Shown in pieces: positions 5,962 to 61,457 of a DNA stretch of 64,000 bases. Positions within the stretch are counted from its first letter, which is position 1, and the number at the start of each line of letters is the position of its first letter. The stretch is from Methanolobus sp. GTDB taxonomy: Archaea; Halobacteriota; Methanosarcinia; Methanosarcinales; Methanosarcinaceae. Position numbers and translations under genes: made by a program. The stretch is taken from the NCBI GenBank assembly GCA_029762595.1, contig JARVGJ010000003.1, forward strand, positions 1 through 64,000, written 5' to 3'. The notes beneath the pieces are model-generated. The model searched no databases and was not told where the DNA came from. It worked only from the letters and a program-made list of their open reading frames with translations.

Positions 5962-7176
5962 TCATTCATGCCGAAGAGCATCCACCGGATTCATCCTTGC
6001 AGCCTTGTTAGCCGGGTATATTCCAGCAAGCAGACCTACAACAAGCGATACAAGCATACCTGCCAGGATCATATACATCGGGAACACATAGGGGAGATTC
6101 ATTAGAGTATCCACAACATATGCACCTGCCACACCAAGGATAATTCCAAGTACACCACCTAAAAGTCCCACAACCATGGATTCCACCATGAACAGGGATA
6201 AGACCTCGTAATTCTTATATCCAAGGGACTTCATGATACCAATTTCCCCGGTTCTCTCCGTTACTGTGACCAGCATGATATTCATAATACCTATAGAACC
6301 CACTATGAGAGATATCAGGGCAACTGAGGTGAGTAACGATCCCAGGGCAGCTGAGAGCTGGTCAACCTCTTCAAGTATCTCTGCCTGGTTTAAAAGAAGA
6401 TACGGTTTAGCATCCTCATTATCAAGATCCCTGAAAGGAACGCCCAGGTTTCGGGCAAGTCTTTTGTCTAGCTCATCTGTGACATCGTTAATAGATTCCA
6501 GGTTCTCAGCAGCCGCAAAGAATCCCCAGTAATAATCCTCACCCATTATCTCGTTCATGGTTGCTATGGGAATGAAGATCCTTTCATCCGGCTCGATCCC
6601 GCTTTGCACGAATGTTGATTCAGGGCTGGCCATAATTCCCTTGACCTTGAATTGCCTGGTTACTTTTTCCCCGTCGGCCCTTGTGAACGTCAGTTCTATG
6701 GTATTCTTATCCGAGATCTTACGATTGAACTTATCATATGCCACATCATGACCTATAACAGCCATGTACTGGTCTTTGTCATTGATAAAAGTCCCACTTT
6801 CCATCCTTATGTTGGCAACTTCCTCGTAGTCCTGCGAAACCCCCTGAACCTCTATCTGCCTTATAGTGGAAATATAACGGACCTGGGCCACCTCCTGACT
6901 CAGAGGAGATACACCTATTATACCAGGAGTGTTCTTCACTATATCCATCTCACTGTCATGGAACAGGTTTGCAGTCTTTCCCTGAATTATAATGAAATTG
7001 TTACCCACAGAACCTATCTCTTCAGTAAAGTACTGACTGAAGCTGGCACCCAGTGAAACATTGGCAATTACAGCAGCTACACCTATGACTATTCCAAGTG
7101 TGGTCAGCGCCGAGCGCAGCTTTGAACTTCCGATGCTTGCAACAGCCATCCTGAAGGAATGTTTCAGACTTAGCAT
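5962..7176 (-). CDS. MacB-type ABC transporter permease (system A)
   Basis: The 404-residue protein has the MacB/FtsX permease plan: one N-terminal membrane helix (about 20-45), a large extracytoplasmic domain (about 46-270) and three C-terminal helices. The hallmark SIGIMNIMLVTVTERT precedes the coupling segment, and the C-terminus is AGIYPANKAARMNPVDALRHE. Such permeases do not form a simple channel; in the MacB family they transmit force to an outer partner. It is the last gene of the operon ATPase (8451-9155), COG1361 protein (7210-8436), permease. It is a close paralogue of both system B permeases, with the same length. Only one permease is present, so a homodimer is likely. Confidence 0.9.
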   Translation of the reverse strand: MLSLKHSFRMAVASIGSSKLRSALTTLGIVIGVAAVIANVSLGASFSQYFTEEIGSVGNNFIIIQGKTANLFHDSEMDIVKNTPGIIGVSPLSQEVAQVRYISTIRQIEVQGVSQDYEEVANIRMESGTFINDKDQYMAVIGHDVAYDKFNRKISDKNTIELTFTRADGEKVTRQFKVKGIMASPESTFVQSGIEPDERIFIPIATMNEIMGEDYYWGFFAAAENLESINDVTDELDKRLARNLGVPFRDLDNEDAKPYLLLNQAEILEEVDQLSAALGSLLTSVALISLIVGSIGIMNIMLVTVTERTGEIGIMKSLGYKNYEVLSLFMVESMVVGLLGGVLGIILGVAGAYVVDTLMNLPYVFPMYMILAGMLVSLVVGLLAGIYPANKAARMNPVDALRHE

Positions 7177-7209
7177 AAATATCGCCTTACCCTGAGCAAT
7201 CTCACCTTA

Positions 7210-8436
7210 TTACTGCTTCCTGCGTTTCATGAATATAACAGCAGGTACAAAAAGAAATAATAAGATTGCAGCAACACTTACCAAAGCGCCATTGTTTTTC
7301 TTTCCCTCTGTAACAATGGAAAGTTCACGAACAGCCACATCATTGCTATGCTGGTTAATACCATTCCTGTAATCAACTGTAATGGTCACCGGAACCGATG
7401 ATAATTCACTGTCACTTTTTGCCTTGATCTCGATAGTAAAGAGTTCATCTGCACGCATAGAACCTACAAAATATTCCTCTGGAGAGAAAGTAACACCATC
7501 AGCACTCAGTTTCACACTCACAGAACTAAGGTCATTTGGGTGCATGTTGGCCACGTCAAATTCAAGGATACCATTGCCGTTTATAATATCGAGTGGTTTA
7601 GAAGGTATAACCTTGACAGAAGCTGAATCAACCTTTACAGGTATCCTCCAGTTATTATTGTAGGCATGGGAATTGCCCACCATGGACAGATCCAGATAAT
7701 GGGTCCCATCCCTGACATCATCTGCTATCCCAACATTATAGCTTAAAGTGATGGAATCCCCGGGACCTATAATACCGGAGCCTTCGTAGATCTTACTTGT
7801 CACATCTATACCCTCGACACCTTTTAACATCGCTGACTGCACGCGTGCATTATAATCGTAATCAACAGCATCCATGTTCACAGAACTCACCTTTGCCGTA
7901 TTGCTGAGAACAAAGCTTACTGTTCCGGTGTCCCCGGGCATGAATACTACAGGATCACAGACGATCTGGGTCAGTTCCATTGTCCCCTTGCTGTTGAATG
8001 TGCTGGAACCTACATTGAGTTTGAAGGAACTTTTATACCATACTTCACCTTCAGATACCTGATAATACACATCCACAGAACCAGTTCCAACTTTTGCATT
8101 CTCATCCACGTAAAGACGGAATTCGTGAACTGCAGCAGAATCCGGTGCAAGTATGCCTATGTATTTAATAGCATTCTTTTCAGAATCAAGAGCAAAAGGG
8201 TATCCAGGGTCCATCCTAAGGGACACTGCATCTGCCCTACCATAGCCAGTGTTTTCTATCTTCACCCTCACATCCACATATTCACCTATACGGGCCGGGA
8301 AAGGATCATAGTCTATTATGTCAACCTTCATGGTAGCAGGTGATGCTGCTGAAACAGGAACCATGAAAGATCCACTTAAAATTGCTGCACAAAGAAAAAT
8401 CCCTAAGTATCTTTTAATATCATCCATTAATCTCAT
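7210..8436 (-). CDS. membrane-anchored COG1361 S-layer-like protein (system A)
   Basis: The protein begins with a signal peptide (about 8-30, ending in VSAASP), continues as repeated immunoglobulin-like CARDB/COG1361 beta domains, and ends with one membrane helix and a basic tail (FMKRRKQ), so it is anchored outside the cell. The ATG at 8436 is preferred over an in-frame TTG 18 bases upstream, because a gggtgg motif sits just before it. It follows the ATPase stop by only 14 bases and precedes the permease, so it is built into the transporter operon. It is closely related to the system B protein (11765-12994). An adaptor or substrate-receptor role is inferred from this position. Confidence 0.85.
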   Translation of the reverse strand: MRLMDDIKRYLGIFLCAAILSGSFMVPVSAASPATMKVDIIDYDPFPARIGEYVDVRVKIENTGYGRADAVSLRMDPGYPFALDSEKNAIKYIGILAPDSAAVHEFRLYVDENAKVGTGSVDVYYQVSEGEVWYKSSFKLNVGSSTFNSKGTMELTQIVCDPVVFMPGDTGTVSFVLSNTAKVSSVNMDAVDYDYNARVQSAMLKGVEGIDVTSKIYEGSGIIGPGDSITLSYNVGIADDVRDGTHYLDLSMVGNSHAYNNNWRIPVKVDSASVKVIPSKPLDIINGNGILEFDVANMHPNDLSSVSVKLSADGVTFSPEEYFVGSMRADELFTIEIKAKSDSELSSVPVTITVDYRNGINQHSNDVAVRELSIVTEGKKNNGALVSVAAILLFLFVPAVIFMKRRKQ

Positions 8437-8450
8437 TATAAACCACCCGT

Positions 8451-9155
8451 TCAATTATTAACGATATAGCCGTCCCTGATGTAAACCACCCTGTCAGCAT
8501 ACTGTTCCATTTCAGGATCATGGGTTATCATCACAATTGTCCTTCCCTGCCTGTGCAGGTCAGAGAATATCTCCATGACTTCTTCTCCGGTCCGCGAATC
8601 CAGGTTTCCTGTTGGTTCATCAGCGAGTATGAGAGACGGATCATTTATCAAAGACCTGGCTATTGCAACCCTCTGCCTTTGTCCGCCTGAAAGTTCTGAT
8701 GGCCTGTGGCCCATGCGATCATCAAGACCTACCAGCTTCAGCAGATCCTGTGCACGCGAAGATGTGTCCATTCCCTTCTTTGTATTGGAATAAGTAGGTA
8801 ACATCACATTTTCGTAAGCACTCAGACGTGGGATAAGGTTAAAATTCTGGAACACAAAACCAATCTCAAATCCCCGAAGCTCTGCAAGTTCATTGTCAGA
8901 TATGGTGTTCGTGTCCCTGCCCATTAGCATGACATTGCCTGATGTAGGCCTGTCAAGACAACCCACCATATTCATCAGTGTGCTCTTGCCAGAGCCGGAA
9001 GGACCCATTATGGCAACAAATTCCCCTTTTTTGATGCACATGTCTATGCCATGCAAGATGGGGACTTCCATGTCACCAAGGAAGTAGCTCTTTTTCAGAC
9101 ACCTGATATCAATAACATTGTTACCATCAGGAACAGATCCATTGTAATCAGCCAT
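8451..9155 (-). CDS. MacB/LolD-type ABC transporter ATPase (system A)
   Basis: The 234-residue ATPase energises the system A permease. Walker A (GPSGSGKST) lies at 51-59, and a Q-loop (FVFQNFNLIP), the signature LSGGQRQRVAIARS, Walker B (LILADEPTGNLD) and an H-loop (MITHD) follow, all intact. It is the first gene of its operon. An aggtg ribosome binding site lies just upstream of the ATG. The promoter region upstream contains a TATA-like box and an inverted repeat, annotated separately. Confidence 0.92.
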   Translation of the reverse strand: MADYNGSVPDGNNVIDIRCLKKSYFLGDMEVPILHGIDMCIKKGEFVAIMGPSGSGKSTLMNMVGCLDRPTSGNVMLMGRDTNTISDNELAELRGFEIGFVFQNFNLIPRLSAYENVMLPTYSNTKKGMDTSSRAQDLLKLVGLDDRMGHRPSELSGGQRQRVAIARSLINDPSLILADEPTGNLDSRTGEEVMEIFSDLHRQGRTIVMITHDPEMEQYADRVVYIRDGYIVNN

Positions 9156-9178
9156 TGTAATTCACCTCTAATACACCA

Positions 9179-9200
9179 ACTTGACTATTAATCGTCAAGT
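9179..9200. promoter_or_regulatory. inverted repeat upstream of system A ATPase
   Basis: A perfect 7-base inverted repeat (acttgac, 8-base spacer, gtcaagt) lies 24 bases before the ATG at 9155. It lies roughly where the transcript should begin, given the TATA-like box at 9215-9226. It could be an operator, or a hairpin in the leader. Confidence 0.45.
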
Positions 9201-9214
9201 CGGACAATGCGCTG

Positions 9215-9255
9215 TATATACTTAAACCTTTCTATACATCGACAGATGCGACTAT
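9215..9255 (-). promoter_or_regulatory. candidate promoter of system A with upstream shared element
   Basis: On the minus strand the sequence gaaaggtttaagtatata resembles an archaeal BRE plus TATA box (TATA part at 9215-9226), with the start codon about 60 bases downstream. Immediately upstream, 9238-9255 holds atcgacagatgcgactat (plus strand). This matches 15 of 18 bases of 13989-14006, in front of system C. Confidence 0.4.
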
Positions 9256-9308
9256 GGTTTGCGGAATCCTGTTGGCAAAAATGCTAAAGGCAGAGGATCA
9301 GAATTACA

Positions 9309-10523
9309 TCACCCGTGCCTTAGAGCTTCCACAGGATCCAGATTTGCCGCCTTATTGGCAGGATATACTCCGGCCACCAGGCCTACAAGAACAGATATGA
9401 AAAATCCCAGAAAAATAAGATAAAATGGGAATACCGGAGGAATATTCAGGTAGACTTCCACCATATAAGAACCCACAAGTCCCAGGGATGTCCCGAGAAT
9501 ACCACCAATGACACCTATTATGATCGATTCCATTATGAATAGTGATAGGATCCCGGATCTTGTATATCCAAGAGATTTTAAAAGACCTATCTCCCTGGTC
9601 CTCTCGGTAACCGTGACCAGCATTATATTCATTATACCTATGGACCCCACAATAAGAGCAACAAGAGCTACAAGGGTGATCAATATTGTAAGTGTATTTG
9701 CAAGCTGGTCCAGTTGCTCGATTATCTCTGCCTGATTGAAGATACGATAGGGTTTAGCATCAGGATTATCAAGGTCCCTTGTCGGTACCCCAAGTGACCT
9801 TGCCAGACGTTTATCAACCTCCTCTGAGACTTCCCTTACAGATTCAGCGTTCCCGGTCCTGGCGGAAAAACCGCCATAATCAGTGACATTCAACATCTCG
9901 TTCAATGTCGCTATAGGAACATAGATCGTAGCATCACGGTCAGGACCGCCCTGCACAAAAGTATTGTCTTCCCCTTCAAGGATACCTTTGATCCTGAATT
10001 TGCGGGTAACACTGGTTCCATCATTACGTTTGATGGTTATATCGACATAGTTCTTAATGGAGACATCCCTGTCAAATTTATCCTCTGCTACATCTTTCCC
10101 CAATACTGCCACGTATTTATCCTTGTCTGTAAGGAAACTTCCCTCTTCAACAAGGAGGTTGGATATGTACTGGGCATCCCGGGATACACCTTGTACATCT
10201 ATCTGCCGGGTTACAGACCGATATGTAACAGCCGCTGTCTGCTGGTTGAACCCTGAAACACCTTCTATTCCCGGCGTGTTCCTTATCAGCTCCATCTCAT
10301 TGTCGTAGAATAAATTAACATCCTCACTGTAGATGATTATGAAATTAGAGCCCAGAGAACCAAGCTCATCTGTGAAATACTGGTTAAAACTGGCTCCAAG
10401 AGAAACGTTTGCAACAACTGCTGCAACACCTATTATTATACCCAGGGCTGTGAGAGTAGAGCGTAGTTTCGCACTCCTTATGCTTCCAAAGGCAATAACA
10501 AATGCATGTTTCAGGTCTATCAT
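9309..10523 (-). CDS. MacB-type ABC transporter permease 2 (system B)
   Basis: The 404-residue permease has an N-terminal membrane helix, an extracytoplasmic domain (about 46-270) and three C-terminal helices. It carries the family motif SIGIMNIMLVTVTERTREIG and ends AGVYPANKAANLDPVEALRHG. Its start lies one base from the end of the preceding permease (10525-11739), so the two are co-transcribed and may form a heterodimer. The sequence is strongly similar along its length to the permeases at 5962-7176 and 10525-11739, which points to local duplication. Confidence 0.9.
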   Translation of the reverse strand: MIDLKHAFVIAFGSIRSAKLRSTLTALGIIIGVAAVVANVSLGASFNQYFTDELGSLGSNFIIIYSEDVNLFYDNEMELIRNTPGIEGVSGFNQQTAAVTYRSVTRQIDVQGVSRDAQYISNLLVEEGSFLTDKDKYVAVLGKDVAEDKFDRDVSIKNYVDITIKRNDGTSVTRKFRIKGILEGEDNTFVQGGPDRDATIYVPIATLNEMLNVTDYGGFSARTGNAESVREVSEEVDKRLARSLGVPTRDLDNPDAKPYRIFNQAEIIEQLDQLANTLTILITLVALVALIVGSIGIMNIMLVTVTERTREIGLLKSLGYTRSGILSLFIMESIIIGVIGGILGTSLGLVGSYMVEVYLNIPPVFPFYLIFLGFFISVLVGLVAGVYPANKAANLDPVEALRHG

Positions 10524-10524
10524 G

Positions 10525-11739
10525 TCACTCCTTCCTCAAAGCTTCCACCGGATTAAGACGCGCAGCTTTCCTTGCAGGATAAACCCCTGCAAAAAGCCCT
10601 ACAAGCACAGAGATAGAGAAGCCCAGGAGTATAAGGCTCAATGGAAATATATTAGGCACACCTAGAAAACCGTTTGCGATCATGGCAATCCCTATCCCAA
10701 GACCCGTGCCAAGGATCCCGCCTATTAGCCCTACGATAATGGACTCGATTATGAAGAGGGAAAGAACATCCTTTTCACTGTATCCAAGGGATTTCAAAAG
10801 GCCTATCTCCCTTGTCCTTTCTGCAACCGTAACAAGCATGATGTTCATAATACCTATTGAACCGACTATAAGGGAGATAAGAGCAACCGATGTCAAAAGA
10901 GTTGCCAATGCACTTGAAAGCTGGCTGGTCTGCTCCAGGATCTCTATCTGATCGAACAGTACATATGGTTTTGCATCAGGATTATCCAGGTCTCTGCCAG
11001 GAACACCCAGACTGCGTGCAAGTCGCCTGTCGATCTCATCCGAAGTTTCTCTGACAGCTTCAAGGCTCTGGGCTTTTACATAGAAACCACCGTAATCATC
11101 CCTGCCAAGTATCTCGTTCATGGTCGCTATAGGAATGAAGATGCGAATCTCAGGTTCAGCACCTGTTTGTGTAAATGTGGTGTTCGGGTCCTGTATAACA
11201 CCCTTGACTATGAAGGTCCTTGTGACCACATCACCATCCTCTTTCCTGAAAGTTATATCAATAGGATTCTTGACAGAGACCTTCTTACCAAATTTCTCGT
11301 AGGCAACATCTGCACCTATAACCGCAACATAACGGTCCTTGTCAGAGAGAAAGGTTCCCGAATCCATATTGAAGTTTGCCACTTCAGCATATTCCTCAGT
11401 GACACCCTGAATATCGATCTGCCGGGAGGTCGACATGTAAGTGACCCTGGCCATTTGTTGTTTGATCGGGGAAACACTCTCAACTCCCGGAGTGTTCCTT
11501 ATAACCTCCAGTTCTTTATCGAAGAACACGTCTATGTTCTGGCTGAATATGACCACAAAATTAGAGCCTATGGCTCCGATCTCATCATCGAAGTACTGGT
11601 TGAAACTGACTCCTAGCGATACATTGGCTATCACAGCCGCCACGCCTATGATGATACCAAGAGTCGTAAGGGCAGACCTGAGCTTGGAACTGCTTATACT
11701 ACCCAGAGATATATTTACAGCCTGAGACAGACTTAACAT
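10525..11739 (-). CDS. MacB-type ABC transporter permease 1 (system B)
   Basis: This 404-residue paralogue has the same architecture as its neighbours: membrane helix at about 20-45, MacB-like extracytoplasmic core, then three helices around SIGIMNIMLVTVAERTREIG and the C-terminal GVYPARKAARLNPVEALRKE. It follows the COG1361 gene (11765-12994) by 25 bases and abuts the second permease. Having two permeases in system B against one in system A suggests that one was added by tandem duplication. Confidence 0.9.
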   Translation of the reverse strand: MLSLSQAVNISLGSISSSKLRSALTTLGIIIGVAAVIANVSLGVSFNQYFDDEIGAIGSNFVVIFSQNIDVFFDKELEVIRNTPGVESVSPIKQQMARVTYMSTSRQIDIQGVTEEYAEVANFNMDSGTFLSDKDRYVAVIGADVAYEKFGKKVSVKNPIDITFRKEDGDVVTRTFIVKGVIQDPNTTFTQTGAEPEIRIFIPIATMNEILGRDDYGGFYVKAQSLEAVRETSDEIDRRLARSLGVPGRDLDNPDAKPYVLFDQIEILEQTSQLSSALATLLTSVALISLIVGSIGIMNIMLVTVAERTREIGLLKSLGYSEKDVLSLFIIESIIVGLIGGILGTGLGIGIAMIANGFLGVPNIFPLSLILLGFSISVLVGLFAGVYPARKAARLNPVEALRKE

Positions 11740-11764
11740 GGAATATGCTTCCTGTCCTGCTTAC

Positions 11765-12994
11765 TTATTCTTTATTCAACTTCCTTTTGTACAGAACATA
11801 TGCCCCCCCGCCGATAATGATCAGCAGGAGCAATGCAATATAAACAGCTGAGCTATTGTCCTTTTCAGCCTGGTGATGTTGCAACTGACGAACACCTATC
11901 TGCTCTGTATGCTGATTCAGCCCGTTCCTGTAATCCGCATGTATTACAAGGTCTGAAGGAAATGATATGCCATCGTCCACAGCCTTTGCATTTATCTCGA
12001 TAGTGAAGAGTTCATCCGGATCCATTGAACCAATGAAATATTCAGCCGGAGAAAACTCAATGCCCTCTGATTCAAGTATTATACTGACAGAGGAAAGCAT
12101 GTTTGGATGAATATTAGCAACATCGAATTCCAGTGTCCCCACACCGTTCTCAAGGACCAGGGGTTTTGAAGGGATGACCCTGACAGAAGACGAATCCACC
12201 TTTAAGGGAATTCTCCAGTTATTATTATACGAGTGTGAACTCCCTATTATGGAAAAATCAAGGTAGTATGTCCCATCAAGGACATCATCATCCACCTGCA
12301 CATTATAGGTCAGGTCAACTGACTCACCGGGACCAACGACACCGTTACCATAGTATGTTCCAGTGGTCACTTTGATGCCGTCAACACCATCAAGGGAGGC
12401 GGACTGTATCCTTGCATTGGTATCATACTGATTGTCATCGACTGTGACCGTATACTGAGTGGCGCTGTTGATAAGTCTGAATGAGATGGTACCTCTATCC
12501 CCGGGCATGAAAACCTGGGGCTCTTTTACAGGAACTGATGCAAGCTGTACAGTCCCTTTGCTGTCAAATGTATCAGAACCCACCCTTAATTCGAACTTCT
12601 TTTTGAACCAGGCAACTCCTTCACTTTCCTGGAACCATACTTCAATGGCCCCTATACCTGGTTTAGCATCGGAGCTGGTATAGAGACGAAACTCATGAAC
12701 TGCAGCATTGTTTGGTGTCAGTATACCTATATTTACCTGAGAGTTCTCATCACTTATCGAAAATGGATAATCAGGAACTACTTTGATGGAAAGGGAACTT
12801 GCTTTTGCATATCCGAGGTTTTCCACCTTGACCCAGACATTTACATATTCCCCTATCTCTGCAGGCACAGGTTCGTACTTAAGTATACTTACCTTAAGGT
12901 CCGCCCCATCTGCTGCAAAAGCAGTTGGTGGTGATAGAAGTGATAACAACAATACGGAAACAAAAATAATGATTGATCTATTTTTCCCCAACAT
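11765..12994 (-). CDS. membrane-anchored COG1361 S-layer-like protein (system B)
   Basis: The 409-residue protein has a signal peptide (about 5-28, ending AFAADG), several CARDB/COG1361-type beta domains and a C-terminal membrane helix followed by a basic end (LYKRKLNKE). Long stretches match the system A protein, for example IPSKPL, then LEFDVANIHPN and the segment around SPAEYFIGSM. It sits between the ATPase and the two permeases in one operon. Most of it would lie in the pseudoperiplasmic space beside the permease outer domains. A receptor or adaptor role is inferred, not shown. Confidence 0.85.
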   Translation of the reverse strand: MLGKNRSIIIFVSVLLLSLLSPPTAFAADGADLKVSILKYEPVPAEIGEYVNVWVKVENLGYAKASSLSIKVVPDYPFSISDENSQVNIGILTPNNAAVHEFRLYTSSDAKPGIGAIEVWFQESEGVAWFKKKFELRVGSDTFDSKGTVQLASVPVKEPQVFMPGDRGTISFRLINSATQYTVTVDDNQYDTNARIQSASLDGVDGIKVTTGTYYGNGVVGPGESVDLTYNVQVDDDVLDGTYYLDFSIIGSSHSYNNNWRIPLKVDSSSVRVIPSKPLVLENGVGTLEFDVANIHPNMLSSVSIILESEGIEFSPAEYFIGSMDPDELFTIEINAKAVDDGISFPSDLVIHADYRNGLNQHTEQIGVRQLQHHQAEKDNSSAVYIALLLLIIIGGGAYVLYKRKLNKE

Positions 12995-13059
12995 ATTTAT
13001 TCCTCATTTTATTATTTCCCGTCCTCAATGTTTGAATATTTTCTAATACAACATAAAAT

Positions 13060-13770
13060 TCATTTCTCAATTATGCCGTCCTTAAGGTGTACGATCCTGT
13101 CTGCATATTGAGCAAGGTCCGGATCGTGGGTGATCATGACTATTGTCCTGCCTTTTTTATGTAGGTCTGAAAAGATCCTCATAATATCATCCCCTGTTAC
13201 AGAATCAAGGTTACCCGTTGGCTCATCCGCAAGTATCAGTGAGGGATCATTGATAAGTGCCCTTGCAATTGCAACTCTCTGCTGCTGGCCTCCTGACATT
13301 TCCGAGGGTTTATAGTTCATACGGTCTTTCAAGCCAACCATTTCCACAAGCTCCTTTGCCTTTTTTCTGGAATCAACACCGGGTTTTTTGTTAGCATAAG
13401 TAGGGAGTTCTATATTCTGCAGTGTTGTAAGCCTTGGGACAAGATTGAAATTCTGAAAGACAAAACCAATTTCCAGTCCTCGCAGTTTTGCAAGTTCGGG
13501 GTCGGGGAGAGTGTTCACATCCCTTCCCATTAAAAGAACCTGTCCGCAGCTTGGCCTGTCAAGGCAGCCTATCATGTTCATCAGTGTACTCTTTCCCGAA
13601 CCTGAAGGGCCCATTATTGCAACGAATTCCCCCGGCATTACCCTAAGATCCACACTTTTGAGTATGGGCACATCCATGTCACCCACATGATAACTCTTAC
13701 AGATGCTAACCAGCTCGATAACAGGAGCTTTGTTTAGAACCTTAATACCACCGTTATTATCCTCAGACAT
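13060..13770 (-). CDS. MacB/LolD-type ABC transporter ATPase (system B)
   Basis: The ATPase of system B has a complete set of motifs: Walker A GPSGSGKST, Q-loop FVFQNFNLVP, signature MSGGQQQRVAIARA, Walker B LILADEPTGNLD and H-loop MITHD. The ATG at 13770 (protein MSEDNNGG) is chosen over a longer in-frame extension because family members begin shortly before the first strand. It is the first gene of the operon that continues with the COG1361 protein and two permeases. A tandem repeat lies 26 bases upstream. Confidence 0.9.
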   Translation of the reverse strand: MSEDNNGGIKVLNKAPVIELVSICKSYHVGDMDVPILKSVDLRVMPGEFVAIMGPSGSGKSTLMNMIGCLDRPSCGQVLLMGRDVNTLPDPELAKLRGLEIGFVFQNFNLVPRLTTLQNIELPTYANKKPGVDSRKKAKELVEMVGLKDRMNYKPSEMSGGQQQRVAIARALINDPSLILADEPTGNLDSVTGDDIMRIFSDLHKKGRTIVMITHDPDLAQYADRIVHLKDGIIEK

Positions 13771-13796
13771 AATTTGCCACTCTAAAATGATAATAC

Positions 13797-13827
13797 ACAA
13801 CATTGAGAAGATACAATATTGAGAGAT
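13797..13827. repeat. adjacent direct repeat in system B leader
   Basis: Two adjacent copies, acaacattgagaagat and acaatattgagagat, differ by one base and one single-base gap. They lie 27-57 bases before the system B start codon. A TATA-like tract (tttttataag on the minus strand) is at about 13867-13877. The position suits a regulator binding site in the leader. Confidence 0.45.
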
Positions 13828-13988
13828 TTTCTATTTCCAGACTGTAAGGTAATTCGGAGCTGAACTTATAAAAAGTTATTTTCCATGACCCATATGAAAC
13901 AAAATTGTTCATACTGCTGGAAGACCAGTTTACACAATAAAGCAATAAACTATAAATATCGTAGAGTATATAGATTACATGACTAAAT

Positions 13989-14012
13989 ATCGACAAATCA
14001 GACTATATAACA
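13989..14012 (+). promoter_or_regulatory. candidate promoter of system C with shared 18-base element
   Basis: The sequence atcgacaaatcagactat (13989-14006) overlaps a TATA-like run (actatataa), about 40 bases before the first gene of system C. The same element, in the opposite orientation relative to transcription, lies upstream of the system A promoter at 9238-9255 with three mismatches. Shared regulation of the two systems is possible. Confidence 0.4.
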
Positions 14013-14053
14013 TATGACCTGTAGATTTACAACTTGGAAGGATGTAGAAAGCC

Positions 14054-14677
14054 ATGCTGGAAGTATTAACCGACCCTAACGGGTTCTTTAAAAGGAAGAT
14101 AAACGAAGAAAAAGAGTGGAAGACCCCGCTTATCATAGTAGCAGTTATGGCAATACTTGGTGCTTTAAGTGCTTATATGACAATGACGAAAGTAATGGAA
14201 TCACTGCCCCCGGAAGCGGCAGCATTTGCAGGAGTTGGCGCAGCTTTCGGCATAGTTGGTGCTATAATCGGCGTTATTTTTGCATGGGTCCTATATAGTG
14301 CAATATTTTACCTCATATCACTGGTATTCAACGGAGAAGGAAGTTTTAAGAGAGTCATGGAGTTTGTGTCATATGGTTTCATACCAAGCATAGCCAGCTC
14401 TGCTGTCAGTCTCTATTTCACCAACAAGGTTCTTTCAGGTATTGATTTTAGCATGGATGACCCCACAATGATAGCAGATATGATTCTGGCAGACCCTTCC
14501 ATGAAGATAGCAGGCATACTTGGAATAATCTTTACACTATGGAGTGCAAACATCTGGATATTCGCGATGATGTATGCAAGGAACCTGAGTTTCAAGAACG
14601 CTGCGATTGCAGTGGGTATCCCGGTAGGGCTTTATGTGCTGTATACATTATATACCCTTAAAATATTTGGCGTATGA
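14054..14677 (+). CDS. Yip1-domain membrane protein (system C)
   Basis: The 207-residue protein has five predicted membrane segments in the Yip1-family arrangement, with a cytoplasmic N-terminal amphipathic stretch (LTDPNGFFKRK) typical of prokaryotic members. Its stop overlaps the start of the COG1361 gene by four bases (atga), so translation is coupled. It is therefore the first gene of system C (Yip1-like, COG1361, ATPase, permease), an addition missing from systems A and B. Prokaryotic Yip1 proteins have no established function; a membrane assembly or accessory role is inferred only from the operon. A ggaagg motif lies upstream of the ATG. Confidence 0.82.
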   Translation: MLEVLTDPNGFFKRKINEEKEWKTPLIIVAVMAILGALSAYMTMTKVMESLPPEAAAFAGVGAAFGIVGAIIGVIFAWVLYSAIFYLISLVFNGEGSFKRVMEFVSYGFIPSIASSAVSLYFTNKVLSGIDFSMDDPTMIADMILADPSMKIAGILGIIFTLWSANIWIFAMMYARNLSFKNAAIAVGIPVGLYVLYTLYTLKIFGV

Positions 14678-15999
14678 ACATGAAAAACATGATGAAAGTA
14701 CTTATTGTGGCAGTACTTCTGACCACATTCTCTTTTTCCGGGGCTGCAAGTACAACGATCAGGCCTACGGTCTCCCTTGACTACGAGATGGAACCGGAGG
14801 TCTTCATGCCCGGAGATACAGGCACCATCACAGTAACCCTTAAGAACATGGCAACCGGGGAGATATATGTCAGGGAGGATGATGAGACACTGGATATGAA
14901 CGCTTATATTGCAAGCGGCAGCCTAAATGGTAATGGGAAGCTGGAGATCCTTGATAAGAGTTATACCAATGTTGGACTCCTGGGTCCCGGAGATAACCTG
15001 AAGCTCACATTCAATGTCAAAGTAAAGGATAACGTTGCCAATGGAGTCCATTATGCTGACCTTAAGCTAATTGGTGGCAGCAACATGTACGACCTTAACT
15101 ACCCCATACCTGTGAAAGTGGATGACAGGAGTGTAAAGCTTATCATATCCGATCTTCCTTCAACCCTCATGAACGAGGTTTCCATAATCAGCATAGATGT
15201 GGTTAACCGCAGACCGAATGATGTAAAGAGCGTCATTGTCACACCTTATGCAGAGGGCATGATCTTCACACCCTCCGATTATTTTGTAGGAGCAATCCAA
15301 GAGGGGGACAAGTCAACTGCCACATTCACTCTTAATACAATGTCCTCAGAGAAGGAACACAACACTGTTTCATTCTATACATCCTTTTTTAATGGAGACA
15401 ACCTGCACCACACAGAGAATACGTCAAAGGATGTAAGGATCATAAAACAATCCCCTCTTGTGTTCACAGGTATTGAGACAGTGAGTACAGGAAACAAGTA
15501 TACTATCACAGGGGACCTGAACAATTTCGGCATCACCGATGCCAGGAACGTGATGGTGTCAATAGCCAGCCGTGATGGACTTGAACCTGTGCAGCCTTAT
15601 GCAAATTACTTTATAGGAACACTGGAGGCAGACGACTTCAGCAGTTTTGAGCTCAGCGCCAGGGTGACATCCGGGAACATAACTGCAATACCAATACTCA
15701 TTGAATTCAGGGACCCTGACAATGCCTACACTGCGATCTCCCAGGAAATTCCAATCCATTCTGGAACAGGAGCTACTTTCTCTGTAAAAAACGATGAGAA
15801 CGAAAGTTCCACCGGCCTCTGGCTTATGGCCGGGATAATTGCCATAGGGATCATTGCAGTAATAGGTTATTCATGGAAAAAACGCAGGGATGAGGAGGAA
15901 GGAGAAGAAGAAGAAGGATATGAAGAGGAAGAGTATGAAGATCTGGAAGATGGCGAGATAACAGAGGACATAATTGATGAGGAAGAATTCCTGAAATAA
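14674..15999 (+). CDS. COG1361 S-layer-like protein with acidic cytoplasmic tail (system C)
   Basis: The 441-residue protein starts with a signal peptide (about 5-27), continues as CARDB/COG1361-like beta domains and has one membrane helix at about 383-402, with WKKRRDEEE marking the inner face. Unlike the A and B proteins it ends in a tail of nearly 40 residues, mostly Glu and Asp, that should lie in the cytoplasm. Its extracellular part is related to A and B, including the motif FMPGDTGT and the segment around FTPSDYFVGA. It overlaps the Yip1-like gene and precedes the ATPase by 11 bases. Confidence 0.85.
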   Translation: MNMKNMMKVLIVAVLLTTFSFSGAASTTIRPTVSLDYEMEPEVFMPGDTGTITVTLKNMATGEIYVREDDETLDMNAYIASGSLNGNGKLEILDKSYTNVGLLGPGDNLKLTFNVKVKDNVANGVHYADLKLIGGSNMYDLNYPIPVKVDDRSVKLIISDLPSTLMNEVSIISIDVVNRRPNDVKSVIVTPYAEGMIFTPSDYFVGAIQEGDKSTATFTLNTMSSEKEHNTVSFYTSFFNGDNLHHTENTSKDVRIIKQSPLVFTGIETVSTGNKYTITGDLNNFGITDARNVMVSIASRDGLEPVQPYANYFIGTLEADDFSSFELSARVTSGNITAIPILIEFRDPDNAYTAISQEIPIHSGTGATFSVKNDENESSTGLWLMAGIIAIGIIAVIGYSWKKRRDEEEGEEEEGYEEEEYEDLEDGEITEDIIDEEEFLK

Positions 16000-16010
16000 A
16001 CGGTGCTCAT

Positions 16011-16742
16011 ATGCAACAGGCAAAACCCTCGCCAAGTCCCAAAAAGAAGATAGTCCCTTCTGACAGGCCATATCCCATAGTATATCTGAAGGATGTTAAG
16101 CGCATATATACACTCGGAAATAACAGGATACATGCCCTGAACGGGGTCAGTCTTTCTATTAAGAAAGGAGACTTTGTAACCATCATGGGCTCATCAGGCT
16201 CGGGTAAGAGTACCCTTTTGAACATGATCGGATGTCTTGACCTTCCAACTTCCGGCAAAGTAAAGATCAATAACATCGACCTCTCAAAACTTGATGATGA
16301 CGGCCTTACGGCAATCCGCAGGAATAATATAGGTTTCATCTTCCAGCAGTTCAACCTGATACCGACCCTTACTGCCATCGAGAATGTTGAGATACCGATG
16401 ATATTCAATGGCCAGTCCTCCGAAAAAAGAAGAAGGAAAGCCCTCAGTATGTTGAAAAGAGCAGATTTGCCACTGGAATTTGCAAACCACAAGCCCAATG
16501 AGATGTCAGGTGGACAGCAGCAAAGAGTTGCAATTGCACGGGCACTGGCAAACGACCCTCCTATACTGCTTGCTGACGAGCCCACAGGTAACCTTGATAC
16601 CAGGACCGGAAACAATATTATGGAACTGCTAAAGCAGCTGAATGCCAGCGGAACGACGGTTATCGTTGTCACTCATGATCCTAAAATGGAAGAATATTCC
16701 AATACATCCATAAGGATACAGGACGGGGAGATCATAAAATGA
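16011..16742 (+). CDS. MacB/LolD-type ABC transporter ATPase (system C)
   Basis: The 243-residue ATPase has Walker A GSSGSGKST, Q-loop FIFQQFNLIP, signature MSGGQQQRVAIARA, Walker B ILLADEPTGNLD and H-loop VVTHD. A basic, proline-rich extension of about 22 residues precedes the conserved core. Its stop codon overlaps the permease start (atga at 16739), so the two subunits are translationally coupled. Together with the permease and the COG1361 protein it forms a third complete MacB-type system. Confidence 0.91.
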   Translation: MQQAKPSPSPKKKIVPSDRPYPIVYLKDVKRIYTLGNNRIHALNGVSLSIKKGDFVTIMGSSGSGKSTLLNMIGCLDLPTSGKVKINNIDLSKLDDDGLTAIRRNNIGFIFQQFNLIPTLTAIENVEIPMIFNGQSSEKRRRKALSMLKRADLPLEFANHKPNEMSGGQQQRVAIARALANDPPILLADEPTGNLDTRTGNNIMELLKQLNASGTTVIVVTHDPKMEEYSNTSIRIQDGEIIK

Positions 16743-17935
16743 AAATGAAGGACATATTCCCATCCATGCCTTCCATGCTCAAAAACAACATGTATGTGGA
16801 ACTGGCAAAGCGTAATCTTAAAAGGCAGTCCGTGCGCACCATACTTGCAGCCATAGGCATTATCATAGGAGTGATCGCAATATCCTCCATGGGCATCCTG
16901 GGTAACAGTCTCAAGCTCTCGGTCACAGACTCCTTTGCTGATGTGGGAGACAGGCTGGTGGTATCTCCTGCTCCTGGAGAAAACCAGATTACAGAGAGGC
17001 AGGTAGACCAGATGAGAAAGGTAGCGAATATAGAAAGCATAATACCCGTATCATCCAGTGGGGAGATCATCGAGTACAAAAAAAGCGGAGCTACTATCCA
17101 GTCTTTCGTATCGGTATACAGTATCAGCAAGGATGATCTTGAAAAACTGGCAGAACTTGAAGAGGGAAGATATTTCAAAGCCGGGTCCACGGACTGTGTT
17201 GTGGGTGCAGGCATAGCATCTAACCTTGAACTTACCCCTGGGCAGAAGATAGAGCTAGATGGCAATAAACTCAGGGTCGTTGGAATACTCAAGGAAAAAG
17301 GCATGGGGTTTGACATCAACACCGACAGCGGAGTATTCACTTCTCAAGAGATGTACAATAAATTATACCCGGATGCTGAAGAAGGGTATAACACGGTCAT
17401 AGTCATAGTAAAGGACATAGACAATATAGACGCAGTTTCAGATGAGATAGAAGAGCGCATCAACAAGAAAGAAGAGCTTGTGACGGTATTTGCCATGAAC
17501 GTCATTACAGATAGCCTGGATGATGTGTTCAGGTCCATTTCCATGTTCCTCATTGGCATAGGTTCCATATCACTTCTTGTTGCCGGTGTGAGTATACTCA
17601 ACGTTATGCTCATGTCCACCATGGAACGTACAAAGGAGATAGGTATCATGAAAGCAGTGGGTGCATCAAGGAAGGACATTCTTAAGATGTTCCTGCTCGA
17701 AGCTCTCTTCCTTGGAGTGATTGCCAGTACCGCAGGTGCAATACTGACGATCAGCGGCAGTTATCTTATAATGGCCCTGATTGTCAAGAACACCTCTTAC
17801 CTGTTAACGTTATCCAGTATGTTCTATGTTCTGGAGGGGTTCGTCTTCGGCATAGCTACAAGCCTTGTTGGTGGAATGTATCCGGCATGGAAGGCTTCGA
17901 GAATGAAGCCGCTGGATGCACTGAGATACGAGTGA
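16739..17935 (+). CDS. MacB-type ABC transporter permease (system C)
   Basis: The 398-residue permease has an N-terminal helix at about 35-58, a smaller extracytoplasmic domain (about 60-265) and three C-terminal helices, ending GGMYPAWKASRMKPLDALRYE. The motif LNVMLMSTMERTKEIGIMKA marks the family. It is clearly more divergent from the A and B permeases than these are from each other, so system C is an older paralogue or was acquired separately. It is the last gene of the divergent plus-strand operon. Confidence 0.9.
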   Translation: MKMKDIFPSMPSMLKNNMYVELAKRNLKRQSVRTILAAIGIIIGVIAISSMGILGNSLKLSVTDSFADVGDRLVVSPAPGENQITERQVDQMRKVANIESIIPVSSSGEIIEYKKSGATIQSFVSVYSISKDDLEKLAELEEGRYFKAGSTDCVVGAGIASNLELTPGQKIELDGNKLRVVGILKEKGMGFDINTDSGVFTSQEMYNKLYPDAEEGYNTVIVIVKDIDNIDAVSDEIEERINKKEELVTVFAMNVITDSLDDVFRSISMFLIGIGSISLLVAGVSILNVMLMSTMERTKEIGIMKAVGASRKDILKMFLLEALFLGVIASTAGAILTISGSYLIMALIVKNTSYLLTLSSMFYVLEGFVFGIATSLVGGMYPAWKASRMKPLDALRYE

Positions 17936-56972: not shown

Positions 56973-57767
56973 TTAAATATCGATCGGAGATGAAGCTTCC
57001 CATTCAGTATCAATGAAATGCTTGAATATCTGGACATGCTCTTTCCCGTTATACCACGTTGCATTAAGGTTAATGGGGACAACATCTTCCTTGATTGTAA
57101 TGACAAGTATTTCCCTGTTGTCGATGACAAGTATTCCACCTTTAAGAGGATTAGATTTGCTGTCATTGCTGTATGTTCTGACCTGCACCCCGGGTAACTC
57201 CCCCACAATTTCTTTTACGTTGCTTTTGTCACGTCCGGTTAACTTGATATTTACACCCTGGCCTATCTTTTTGCGGACTGTTTCTTTTATATTGTCCATA
57301 ATGGGATAGATTTTTGTCACTTCATACAAAGAAGGGTATGAAGAAGCGAATATGATCTCATTTTCAGCCGATTCCAGCATATGGATGATTTTATCATTCA
57401 CATTCTTCACACCACTTATGTTCCACACAGAATCTTCTTCCTTTTCTACCTCCCTGGCATTATATATAGTCTTTAACTGTTCCAGGGAATATTCAATTGC
57501 CTCTTCATAATCTGCCTTCAGCTTATTGATAATGACATTCGGGGCCAGTGCTTTATAACGCATAGGCTTGGTATTCTGGGTCTCGATCACTCCCCTGTCA
57601 TCAAGCCTGTTGATCACTCCGTACACAGCAGAGCGAGGTATCCCTGAAAGCGCATGTATATCCGCTGCAGTTCCACTTCCGTACTGAGTGAGTGCAATAA
57701 GCACCTTTGACTCGTAGGAAGTAAGACCAAGTTGCTGGAGTGAGTCTATCAATTCTTTCATTGTCAT
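56973..57767 (-). CDS. TrmB-family transcriptional regulator
   Basis: The 264-residue protein has the TrmB winged helix at the N-terminus (LGLTSYESKVLIALTQYG, then SGIPRSAVYGVINRLDDRGV). A helical linker leads to a C-terminal effector-type domain (about 110-264). In related proteins that domain binds sugars or other small molecules. It is encoded 20 bases after the COG1361 gene of the RND operon and probably controls it in response to an unknown ligand. Confidence 0.9.
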   Translation of the reverse strand: MTMKELIDSLQQLGLTSYESKVLIALTQYGSGTAADIHALSGIPRSAVYGVINRLDDRGVIETQNTKPMRYKALAPNVIINKLKADYEEAIEYSLEQLKTIYNAREVEKEEDSVWNISGVKNVNDKIIHMLESAENEIIFASSYPSLYEVTKIYPIMDNIKETVRKKIGQGVNIKLTGRDKSNVKEIVGELPGVQVRTYSNDSKSNPLKGGILVIDNREILVITIKEDVVPINLNATWYNGKEHVQIFKHFIDTEWEASSPIDI

Positions 57768-57787: not shown

Positions 57788-58867
57788 TTAATGATTTCTC
57801 TTCTTCTTCCTTATCATATATGCTGGTGTTCCGATGATACCCACCATGAACAATAGTCCCACCATTAATGATGCATTGTCTTTCACTTTTTCACTCATAG
57901 ATACGGCAGGCTCTACATCAATTGGTACCTTCATACCTTTTGAATATCTGGTGCTATCTTGTATGTCTTTATATTTGACCTCGCTATTGACCGAATATTC
58001 CTTTACTGTTGCATCATCTGCTACCTTTACTGTGAATAATGCAGTCCTGGATTCTCCGGGGTAGATATCACCCAGATAAGCCTGATCATCTGTTGTGGAA
58101 AATGGGTCTACAGCACTGATCCTGGCAACACACTCACGTGCAACTTGTTCTCCACTGTTGGTATAAGTGACCTTAATGATGTCTTTGTTTCCTGCATTAA
58201 GCTCAGATACAACATCTGTGACCTTAAAGTAAGGCTCTTCCTTAACAACGATATTAAGGAACATTGTCTGGTTCATTTCCTCATACCAATAATATGTATC
58301 TCCATAGGGAGGAGTTACTGCAGAATCCTTCTGATACCTATAAGAGATATGCAGCATTAAGGGATAAGTGCCAGCTTTTGCATTATCTTGCACCTTTATA
58401 GGAAAGCCTGCAGGCATTCCCAGGGATTTGCCTGCGCTCAACGAGCCCAGAAGAAGGGTATCAAGTTTAATATCTACAGGAGTATTTGGATCTGCAACGG
58501 AAAGTGTTGCAGTCATAGAATCTGCCTTTGTGATGGTCCTGTCAGATAGCAGTTCATTAGCTACAAAAGTCCGGGTGAGGGTTTCTCCATATTGGGCAAT
58601 ATCATCGTCTATCTGTTTTGTATTGGCTTCAAACCCAGTGATCTGTCCATCGTTCATTATATTGATATTGAGGACTGCGTCTTCTCCCCTATTGAACACA
58701 TTATCACAGGCAATATTGGCTTTAAGGTCTGCAGACCCATATACATCATAATAATCGTTCTTTATTGCATGTATAACGTCCTCATCTATACCTGCAGAAA
58801 CGATCTGCACACAACTTAACAATATGATAGTAACCAGAAGTAGCTTTGTTCTTTTATTTATGATCAT
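57788..58867 (-). CDS. COG1361 surface protein paired with RND transporter
   Basis: The 359-residue protein has a signal peptide (about 5-26), two or three CARDB/COG1361-like beta domains and a C-terminal membrane helix followed by RKKKRNH. Its start overlaps the RND gene by four bases, so the two are translationally coupled. This repeats the arrangement seen in the MacB-type systems of this window, with a different transporter class. A bridging or substrate-capturing role is inferred from context. Confidence 0.82.
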   Translation of the reverse strand: MIINKRTKLLLVTIILLSCVQIVSAGIDEDVIHAIKNDYYDVYGSADLKANIACDNVFNRGEDAVLNINIMNDGQITGFEANTKQIDDDIAQYGETLTRTFVANELLSDRTITKADSMTATLSVADPNTPVDIKLDTLLLGSLSAGKSLGMPAGFPIKVQDNAKAGTYPLMLHISYRYQKDSAVTPPYGDTYYWYEEMNQTMFLNIVVKEEPYFKVTDVVSELNAGNKDIIKVTYTNSGEQVARECVARISAVDPFSTTDDQAYLGDIYPGESRTALFTVKVADDATVKEYSVNSEVKYKDIQDSTRYSKGMKVPIDVEPAVSMSEKVKDNASLMVGLLFMVGIIGTPAYMIRKKKRNH

Positions 58868-61164
58868 GTACTCACCATTTTATTTTCAATTTCTTTTTCA
58901 GATGCTTTGCGTGCCGTTCTCCATTTGTCCAGATTGACCATTATAGGTGGTAGAACCACGATGGTACTGAACAACGAGAATGCTACAGCTATTACTGTAA
59001 CGATCCCGAAATCGCGGATCATTGGGAAGGATGAGATAATAAGGGCTGAAAACCCGAATATTACAGTGAAGCCTGATGCAAGAATTGCTTGGCCTATCCT
59101 GGATGCAGCAGTTTCCATGGCTTCAAAAGGATCCATTCCCTTCTCCCTTTCCTCAAAATACCGCTCAAGCATAAGTATAGTGAACTCTGCACCAATACCG
59201 ATAGCAAGTGCACCAAGTGTAGCTGTCAGTGGATTGTATTCCATACCCAGTAGATGCATCACGCCTCCCAGCCAGCCCGTGACCATGACAATAGGCAGTA
59301 TTGTTGCGACCGTCTTCAGCCAGTCCCTGAAGACCAGTAGCATACCTCCAAAGATAATGGCTATTCCCAGATGGTGCATAGTAGTCCTTCCGGATGTGAG
59401 AGCATCTATTACAGATGTTGTCGCAACTTTTGGTCCTGTGATAGTAACAGATACCCCGGGTGGCGGTTCATACCACAACAGATCACTCTCGACTGAGTCT
59501 ATAAGGCTGGCTAACTCTTTGGTTTTAAGTCCTTCTTCAAGATTGAGATTCAGAACTCCCAGATTGCCGCCTTCTATATACTGGTCAATGACAATGGAGG
59601 GCATAGTACCAGTAACAGTGAGGATCGTATACTTGTCAGATGGTATCGAGCCATATATAGAATAAATAAATGAGCCAATGCTATCGGATGACTTGATATG
59701 GCTGTGGCTTTCCTCTGCCACATACCCGAAATCTACCATCCATTGCACCACACCAGGATCAAGTATATCTTCTGCTTTGATGATTATATTGAGCTGGTCT
59801 GAACCGCCGGTGATCCTGTTCAGCTTGTTAAGATCCTGCAGGGCCTGCATGTCAGGAGGGACAAAGTCCTTTGTATCTGTCTGTACACCCACACGCTCAT
59901 CTGCATATAATCCTGCAACAGCCAGGACAGTTGCAAGTACGATAATGATCATTGGATTCCTTGCCATGAATAAAGAAACCCTGACTATGGACTTGCCCAG
60001 GGGAGAGTCATCATTACCTTGTTTCATTTCGGGCTTTTTTGCTATGCCCTTCTTCCTGTTTAAGGCCCTTCTGTCAAGAACATATAACAGAGGCACAAGG
60101 ACGAAGACCGAAACAAGATAGCAAAGAACAGTCCCTACAATGCTCATTTTACCAAAGTCCGCCACCATTGGAACCGGGGATATTAGAAGGGCAACAAACC
60201 CAAGCAAGGTAGCTACAACCGCTGTCCCTACTGCTGGACCGGTATGCTTAACGGTATTGATTATGGCCTCTTCTGCAGACTCCCCTTTTGCAAGCTCTTC
60301 TTCCGCACGATTATGGAACTGTATCGCATAGTCCACTCCCAGACCGATCAGAATAGGGAATACTGCCATGGAAGCCATGGTCATGGGAATGCTCATGAGT
60401 CCCATTGCACCAAAGGTCCATATAAGACCCACAAGGACAACTGGCACCGGAAGCAGACACCACCTTACATGGCGGAATACCATGAGCAGAGCAAATACCA
60501 TAAGGATAAAAGCCAGCATTAACATATACATAAGACTGGCAGTCATCTCCTCTTCCATTGCGATCATAAATGCCGGTTCACCGGTAGCTGTAACCGTTGT
60601 GCCTGGAGGAAAGTCCACCACTTCCAGGGTCCTTTGGATCTCATGAAGTAATCTTTTCTTATTCGTATCACTGATGCTTCCAGGCATCTGGATTATGATT
60701 AGGGTATGCTGTTCATCGGGCATCAATTGTTTGACATATGACTCTGGCAGTTTGTCGATCAAAGCAACTAAGGCAGGATCAGCAGGTATTTCAGAACGCC
60801 CTGTTGCTGAATAGGCTGCACTTTTGATAAGTGATGCCATGCTCATTACATTCTCAACATCCTTGTCCCGCTCAATGATCTGGGCAAAGTCATTAATTGA
60901 CCCCAGTATATGAGCATCCATCACGTTGTCCGATCCCACAAGAACTACAAGCACCTCATTGCCGAAGTTTTTCTTGTACAGGTGGTCTTAGTCCTGATAG
61001 ATCAATGAATCCTTTTTGACGAATGTGTCTATACCGCTCTTGTGTTCGATCATGCCTGCGCCATAAAGTGATACGAACATCATGGCTATAGCTATCAAAA
61101 TGATGAGCTTGGGGCTTTTCTCTATGAAAGTACCGATTTTACTATAGATTGTTTTTGCAGACAT
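58864..61164 (-). pseudogene. HAE3-type RND transporter interrupted by an in-frame TAA
   Basis: A single frame of 766 codons encodes an RND/MMPL-like exporter with two sets of six membrane helices and two large outer loops, the archaeal HAE3 type. It starts at 61164 (MSAKTIYSKIGTF), and codon 59 is TAA (60988-60990), between IYQD and DHLYKKNFGNEV. Both flanks read naturally, so one base change in an original codon, probably Tyr, is enough. Reinitiation at a downstream GTG (60954) could yield a truncated protein that lacks the first helix. Without the stop the gene would be intact and first in the operon. Confidence 0.8.
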
Positions 61165-61457
61165 CTTTGTTAGTATAACAATACTAACAAAATATATAGT
61201 TAATGGGTGACAACAATTAAGAAATAGCAAATGAAATAAATAGAAGCTACATTGCACATCATAGATCCAATTACCCAAAAAAGCAATCCGAGAAAAGTCA
61301 TCTGCATTTCAATTACCAGTTTCATTGGAATATCGAAATGAGAGATTATCAGAACTTAATAGAAAGCTTGTAACCAACATTTTTAATATAATCGTCTGCT
61401 TTTCTAACACTTAAATATCTACAGACCTTAGCATATTTCAAATCCGAGGAACTTACG

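Follow-up and report, generated by a model that had tools for sequence, protein, structure and literature searches.

The genes for HAE3-family RND exporters and for COG1361 proteins form a conserved, tightly spaced unit in which partner and pump evolve in step, and the two likely encode one export machine, composed of an HAE3 RND pump and a dedicated, membrane-anchored Ig-like partner. Much like MmpS in mycobacteria, the antibody-fold partner, labelled 'S-layer protein' in databases, probably belongs to the pump as a functional component. The locus described here lies in the window, by which we mean the whole stretch of 64,000 nucleotides of Methanolobus sp. DNA that was analysed.

A pump gene and its partner gene overlap by four bases

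On the minus strand of the window, the HAE3 RND gene (61164 to 58864) is followed by the COG1361/NEW3 gene (58867 to 57788) and by a TrmB gene (57767 to 56973). The locus has the following features:

58864..61164, minus strand: HAE3-family RND (MMPL superfamily) exporter gene with one in-frame stop (TIGR00921 575 bits; PF03176 E=3e-55)
58864-60954, minus strand: RND open reading frame downstream of the stop, 696 aa from GTG 60954
60988..60990, minus strand: premature TAA at RND codon 59 (Tyr in 12/13 relatives, Phe in 1/13)
60331..60333, minus strand: codon of invariant Asp278 in the TM4 'DY' motif, a candidate proton-relay residue judging from the MmpL/RND family
59185..59187, minus strand: codon of invariant Glu660 in TM10, a candidate relay partner
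57788..58867, minus strand: COG1361/NEW3 partner gene, ATG start, 359 aa (PF10633 over cut-off; AF2 pLDDT 87; Foldseek, VIA)
58864..58867, minus strand: ATGA overlap of the RND stop TGA and the partner start ATG, read from the sequence and the commonest spacing in the family
58238..58750, minus strand: partner Ig-like domain 1, residues 40-210 (AF2 secondary structure)
58529-58621, minus strand: helical hairpin insert in partner Ig-like domain 1, residues 83-113 (AF2)
57905..58237, minus strand: partner Ig-like domain 2 (NEW3), residues 211-321 (Pfam, AF2)
58085-58108, minus strand: DPFSxxDD motif inside partner Ig-like domain 2
57794..57898, minus strand: partner C-terminal TM helix, residues 324-358 (AF2; hydrophobic segment counts)
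56973..57767, minus strand: HTH regulator of the TrmB family, encoded as the third gene in the unit (PF01978 E=2.5e-19)
61166..61191, minus strand: 26-bp palindrome with 11-bp arms, a candidate operator

The sequence-only reading had described a four-base overlap between the partner start and the pump end, and the overlap is indeed exactly ATGA (58864-58867), because the RND stop TGA falls within ...AGTACATGATCATA.... Among named records, the closest relatives of the window pump are from Methanolobus. A second HAE3 gene, intact and accompanied by two partners, is found on another contig (C27) of the same genome. The homologous pair in Haloarcula and Salinigranum carries the PGAP names 'COG1361 S-layer family protein' and 'RND family transporter'.

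Pump and partner are paired across the phylum

To count the pairing, 203 distinct HAE3 genes were gathered from whole genomes within the window's own phylum, and their neighbours were searched with an iterated partner profile; neighbour genes were simple longest-ORF calls, and phylogeny was taken into account only by means of the tree and of the paralogue test. A COG1361 gene on the same strand was present one or two genes away in 150 of the 203 cases, and at least one pair occurred in 11 of the 14 sampled families. Occupancy by COG1361 genes was 148/395 at the adjacent positions (+/-1) and 82/199 at +2, compared to only 4/915 at +/-3 to 5, so that the adjacency, for which the sequence-only reading had proposed a count against random expectation, is far above chance (Fisher test for +/-1 versus +/-3-5, p ~6e-81, with shared ancestry ignored). 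Nearly all adjacent COG1361 genes lie on the strand of the pump (147/148), and the four-base overlap is the modal spacing (82 of 148 adjacent pairs).

The partner gene follows the pump gene in Methanosarcinaceae and the nearest family and precedes it in most of the remaining families, among them the haloarchaea, where COG1361/NEW3 stands directly before RND/MMPL in Haloarcula marismortui, Salinigranum, Haloplanus, Halorubrum, Haloferax lucentense and Salinibaculum. As the gene order flips between lineages, the linkage has survived or was remade after rearrangement. Pairwise distances among pumps and among partners are strongly correlated (r=0.91 over 142 pairs). For the 20 genomes with two pairs the correlation was 0.90, compared to a mean of 0.55 and a maximum of 0.885 when partners were swapped within a genome (0/2000). 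This matching of paralogues is joint inheritance of each operon; contact between the proteins does not follow from it alone. The genome of the window contains three genes of the partner subfamily (E<1e-100), all of them beside its two HAE3 genes. HAE3 genes that are only rarely found next to COG1361 genes would have marked the window pair as incidental, as had been pointed out from the sequence, and the frequency of pairing, its spread over families, the reversals of gene order and the paralogue matching all show that it is not.

The window pump copy carries a premature stop

The sequence-only reading had not reported that the RND frame starting from ATG 61164 is broken at codon 59 by TAA (60990-60988), for which reason the gene caller begins the 696-residue protein at the downstream GTG. 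The frame after the stop scores well above the TIGR00921 (HAE3) cut-off of 351.9 bits, and reading through the stop raises the score to 612 bits over positions 4-732. Among the relatives compared the frame is open, and in the window gene it is not. Read-through by pyrrolysine is ruled out, as the codon is TAA and not TAG. Asp278 and Glu660 are both present in the window pump and are invariant across a 15-sequence alignment.

This raises the question of whether the window locus is a pseudogene remnant in which the pairing has no present function. Such a reading draws on the in-frame stop and on a terminal branch longer than those of close relatives, and would be compatible with a working pump-partner machine in the rest of the family, as it concerns the window copy alone. 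Against it stand the single stop in 2.3 kb of otherwise open frame, the intact partner frame, regulator frame and palindrome, and a dN/dS of ~0.1 on the window branch, indicating purifying selection (a rough value, since synonymous sites are near saturation); the stop may equally well be a sequencing error or a very recent mutation. We therefore regard a remnant as rather unlikely. The open remainder of the frame together with the low dN/dS indicates that the stop is a recent change or an error, and the window pump copy, having only this one premature stop, is accordingly either freshly inactivated or misread.

A common regulator and a candidate operator

A TrmB-family gene lies within four genes of 82/150 paired pumps and of 24/53 solo pumps, so the regulator is common rather than specific to the pair. 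The perfect palindrome at 61166-61191 lies immediately upstream of the window pump's start codon, after a TATA-like box, and occurs once in the genome; most close relatives of the pump have degenerate versions of it in the equivalent position, and we suggest that it could serve as the operator. A scan for promoters and terminators of the bacterial type gave results at chance level and is uninformative for archaea.

The partner is predicted to be an anchored tandem of Ig-like domains

The window partner matches NEW3 (PF10633) with 26.9 bits against a cut-off of 24.4, and 71/83 relatives match this family at E<=0.01. An AlphaFold2 model built from 83 partners (pLDDT 87) predicts a signal helix, a first Ig-like domain into which a helical hairpin is inserted, a second one (NEW3) that bears a DPFSxxDD loop, and finally a C-terminal helix. 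Nearly all partners have hydrophobic segments at both the N- and the C-terminus; among the RND-linked ones, 219 of 226 have the C-terminal segment. In other families, the larger partners encoded upstream match both Ig-like domains in their terminal regions (hhalign E=1e-58). Structure searches with the partner model (Foldseek, VIA) returned generic Ig-like matches only, for instance transglutaminase C-terminal domains, integrins and TRAP-beta, and no solved structure related by sequence to the partner was found. In the L049 locus of a Methanosarcinaceae genome, the two stops between pump and partner could be read as residues because the genes share one frame there; in the resulting single-chain model, for which the relatives were mostly unpaired, the partner is not confidently placed (pTM 0.56, mean pLDDT 75).

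An alternative role for such a protein would be substrate binding and delivery, in which the partner catches or passes on an amphiphile outside the membrane instead of bridging or stabilising the pump. Precedents are BstB for BstA and LppX near MmpL7, and the kinship of HAE3 to the lipid and sterol transporters HpnN, BstA and MmpL3 fits this role, as do the tandem Ig-like sandwich with its helical hairpin insert and the presence of two partners per pump in many Methanosarcinaceae. As no binding fold was recognised in the partner and the conserved C-terminal anchor suits a fixed subunit equally, we consider a delivery protein unlikely. Still less probable is an S-layer or envelope protein that is co-regulated with the pump without contacting it, as its PGAP label and passages of PMC10694973 and PMC10354927 that treat COG1361 as S-layer related would suggest, given that every subfamily gene of the genome adjoins HAE3, that paralogues match one-to-one and that the protein has a single-helix anchor and two small domains.

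MmpS is the best analogue of the partner

The reading that pump and partner form one machine finds its closest parallel in mycobacteria, where the mmpS5 and mmpL5 genes overlap by ATGA, the proteins form a 3:3 complex and the anchored beta-domain MmpS5 locks the MmpL5 pump protomers together (PMC12346298). The profile of the archaeal pump matches the structures of MmpL5, MmpL4 and MmpL3, and MmpL5 is related to it in sequence. Both systems combine an MMPL-type RND pump gene with an adjoining gene for a single-pass, all-beta extracytoplasmic partner, linked through the same ATGA overlap. MmpS has an N-terminal helix anchor and one beta domain, whereas the archaeal partner has a C-terminal helix and two Ig-like domains; the N-terminal helix of the latter resembles a signal peptide. 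The partner thus shares with MmpS the beta-rich domain and the adjacency, but its lasting anchor is C-terminal. In addition, the archaeal gene order varies, the envelope consists of one membrane plus an S-layer, and the Pfam matches of the 83 partner members included no MmpS family. We take MmpS of the MmpL-MmpS systems as the nearest analogue, not as a homologue by sequence match.

A parallel with bacterial periplasmic adaptors, which the sequence-only reading had drawn, turned out to be weak. HlyD/MFP adaptors such as AcrA and MacA are likewise extracytoplasmic partners encoded beside RND and ABC exporters, but the Pfam families matched by the 83 archaeal members at E<=0.01 included no HlyD/MFP (HlyD/biotinyl-lipoyl) domain, and the predicted fold is an Ig-like tandem with a C-terminal anchor. 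MFP-type adaptors, with their barrel-sandwich fold and coiled-coil hairpin, were not among the structural matches listed for the partner model either, an absence that does not amount to exclusion. TRAP-beta of the Sec61 translocon likewise combines an Ig-like domain and a C-terminal TM helix next to a membrane transporter, and VIA aligned it with partner residues 209-359 (Z ~10, rmsd 5-6); it is eukaryotic and belongs to a different machine, and since Ig folds are common the likeness is an analogy only. A search of the open-access literature found no paper tying COG1361 to RND pumps, which is not proof of novelty.

Related proteins accompany ABC exporters

The sequence-only reading had also placed COG1361 partners with two unrelated exporter classes, and the association with several classes is supported. 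The three ABC cases that it listed in the window are present: the COG1361-like genes (7210-8454, 11765-12994 and 14674-15999) share operons with permeases and ATPases of the MacB type. Together these three operons span 5962-17935, and the one at 14054-17935 begins with a Yip1-domain gene. To call the MacB-linked proteins the same partner type was an overstatement. They share with the RND partner a signal peptide, Ig-like repeats, a C-terminal TM helix and an overlapping position in the operon, but lack the DPFSxxDD motif and are distant relatives (hhalign probability 96%, E=4e-9, 15% identity).

The association is strengthened by a closer relative, a clade of COG1361 proteins of ~342 aa in Methanosarcinaceae that are ~40% identical to the RND partners and adjoin an exporter of the ABC-2 type. 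In 13/13 distinct loci, and in a further truncated one (L383), the gene adjoins the end of an ABC-2 permease gene; the loci are L384-L397 (e.g. L384:1462-3562), with L384 and L385 being one and the same. On the partner tree the clade is nested within the RND partners of Methanosarcinia, its exact position being uncertain because the tree program warns of long branches. In contrast to the RND partners, all members have lost the C-terminal TM helix and have a conserved short ending, ..FFQRLFGWI, instead.

About a quarter of HAE3 pumps lack a neighbouring partner

About a quarter of the HAE3 genes (53/203) have no COG1361 gene on the same strand within two genes, and a few of these lie at contig edges. 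The solo pumps are clustered on the tree, in a clade of 14 and as most members of some other families. With so many pumps lacking a neighbour, among them this Methanosarcinaceae clade, the pump fold can evidently work without a partner. Ten neighbours of solo pumps were inspected for missed partners and none was COG1361-like; nine belonged to unrelated families and one had no match. The 14-member clade (L076-L096, Methanosarcina and near relatives) has the highest TIGR00921 scores, and the one member that was checked, L076, has a MarR gene upstream and no COG1361 partner.

Several haloarchaeal MMPLs without a COG1361 neighbour (L371:1452-5213, L372:2427-5459, L373:1878-5237, L341 and L339) contain an insert of 150-500 aa between TM1 and TM2, for which L371 gives weak Pfam matches of the coiled-coil type. 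One may speculate that this insert replaces the partner in the long haloarchaeal proteins. Fusions of pump and partner were not among the forms recovered: the large haloarchaeal MMPLs (895-1253 aa) have no COG1361 domain, their extra length lying between TM1 and TM2, and an apparent fusion of 1337 aa in one genome (G080, locus L109) is an open frame formed by a run of N in the scaffold. Plasmids of beer lactobacilli also carry an HAE3-family pump with a TetR neighbour and no adjoining COG1361 gene (L368, Loigolactobacillus backii plasmid L11988-8, 2595-5237).

A model for the export machine and its implications

For the paired systems, we propose that the HAE3 RND pump sits in the cytoplasmic membrane and the anchored Ig-like partner beneath the S-layer, where the partner helix would pack beside the pump and its Ig domains would bind the extracytoplasmic porter domain. 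There the partner might hold an oligomer together or make the exit path longer, in the manner of MmpS5 with MmpL5. An ion gradient would drive the pump via the invariant TM4 Asp and TM10 Glu, and the TrmB-type regulator may repress the operon until it binds a substrate, which is probably hydrophobic or amphiphilic.

More tentatively, the membrane-associated Ig-like proteins labelled 'S-layer' may constitute a set of archaeal exporter subunits with a separate branch for each of the RND (HAE3), ABC-2 and MacB-type pumps, at least one branch having moved from RND to ABC-2 with loss of the anchor; such a set would be a counterpart, of separate origin, to the bacterial adaptors. The pairing is usual in many methane-making and salt-loving archaea. 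If these proposals are correct, many archaeal genes annotated as S-layer would be pump subunits, HAE3, a poorly studied branch of the RND superfamily, would gain a defined partner, and archaea with one membrane and an S-layer would appear to have their own way of equipping exporters.
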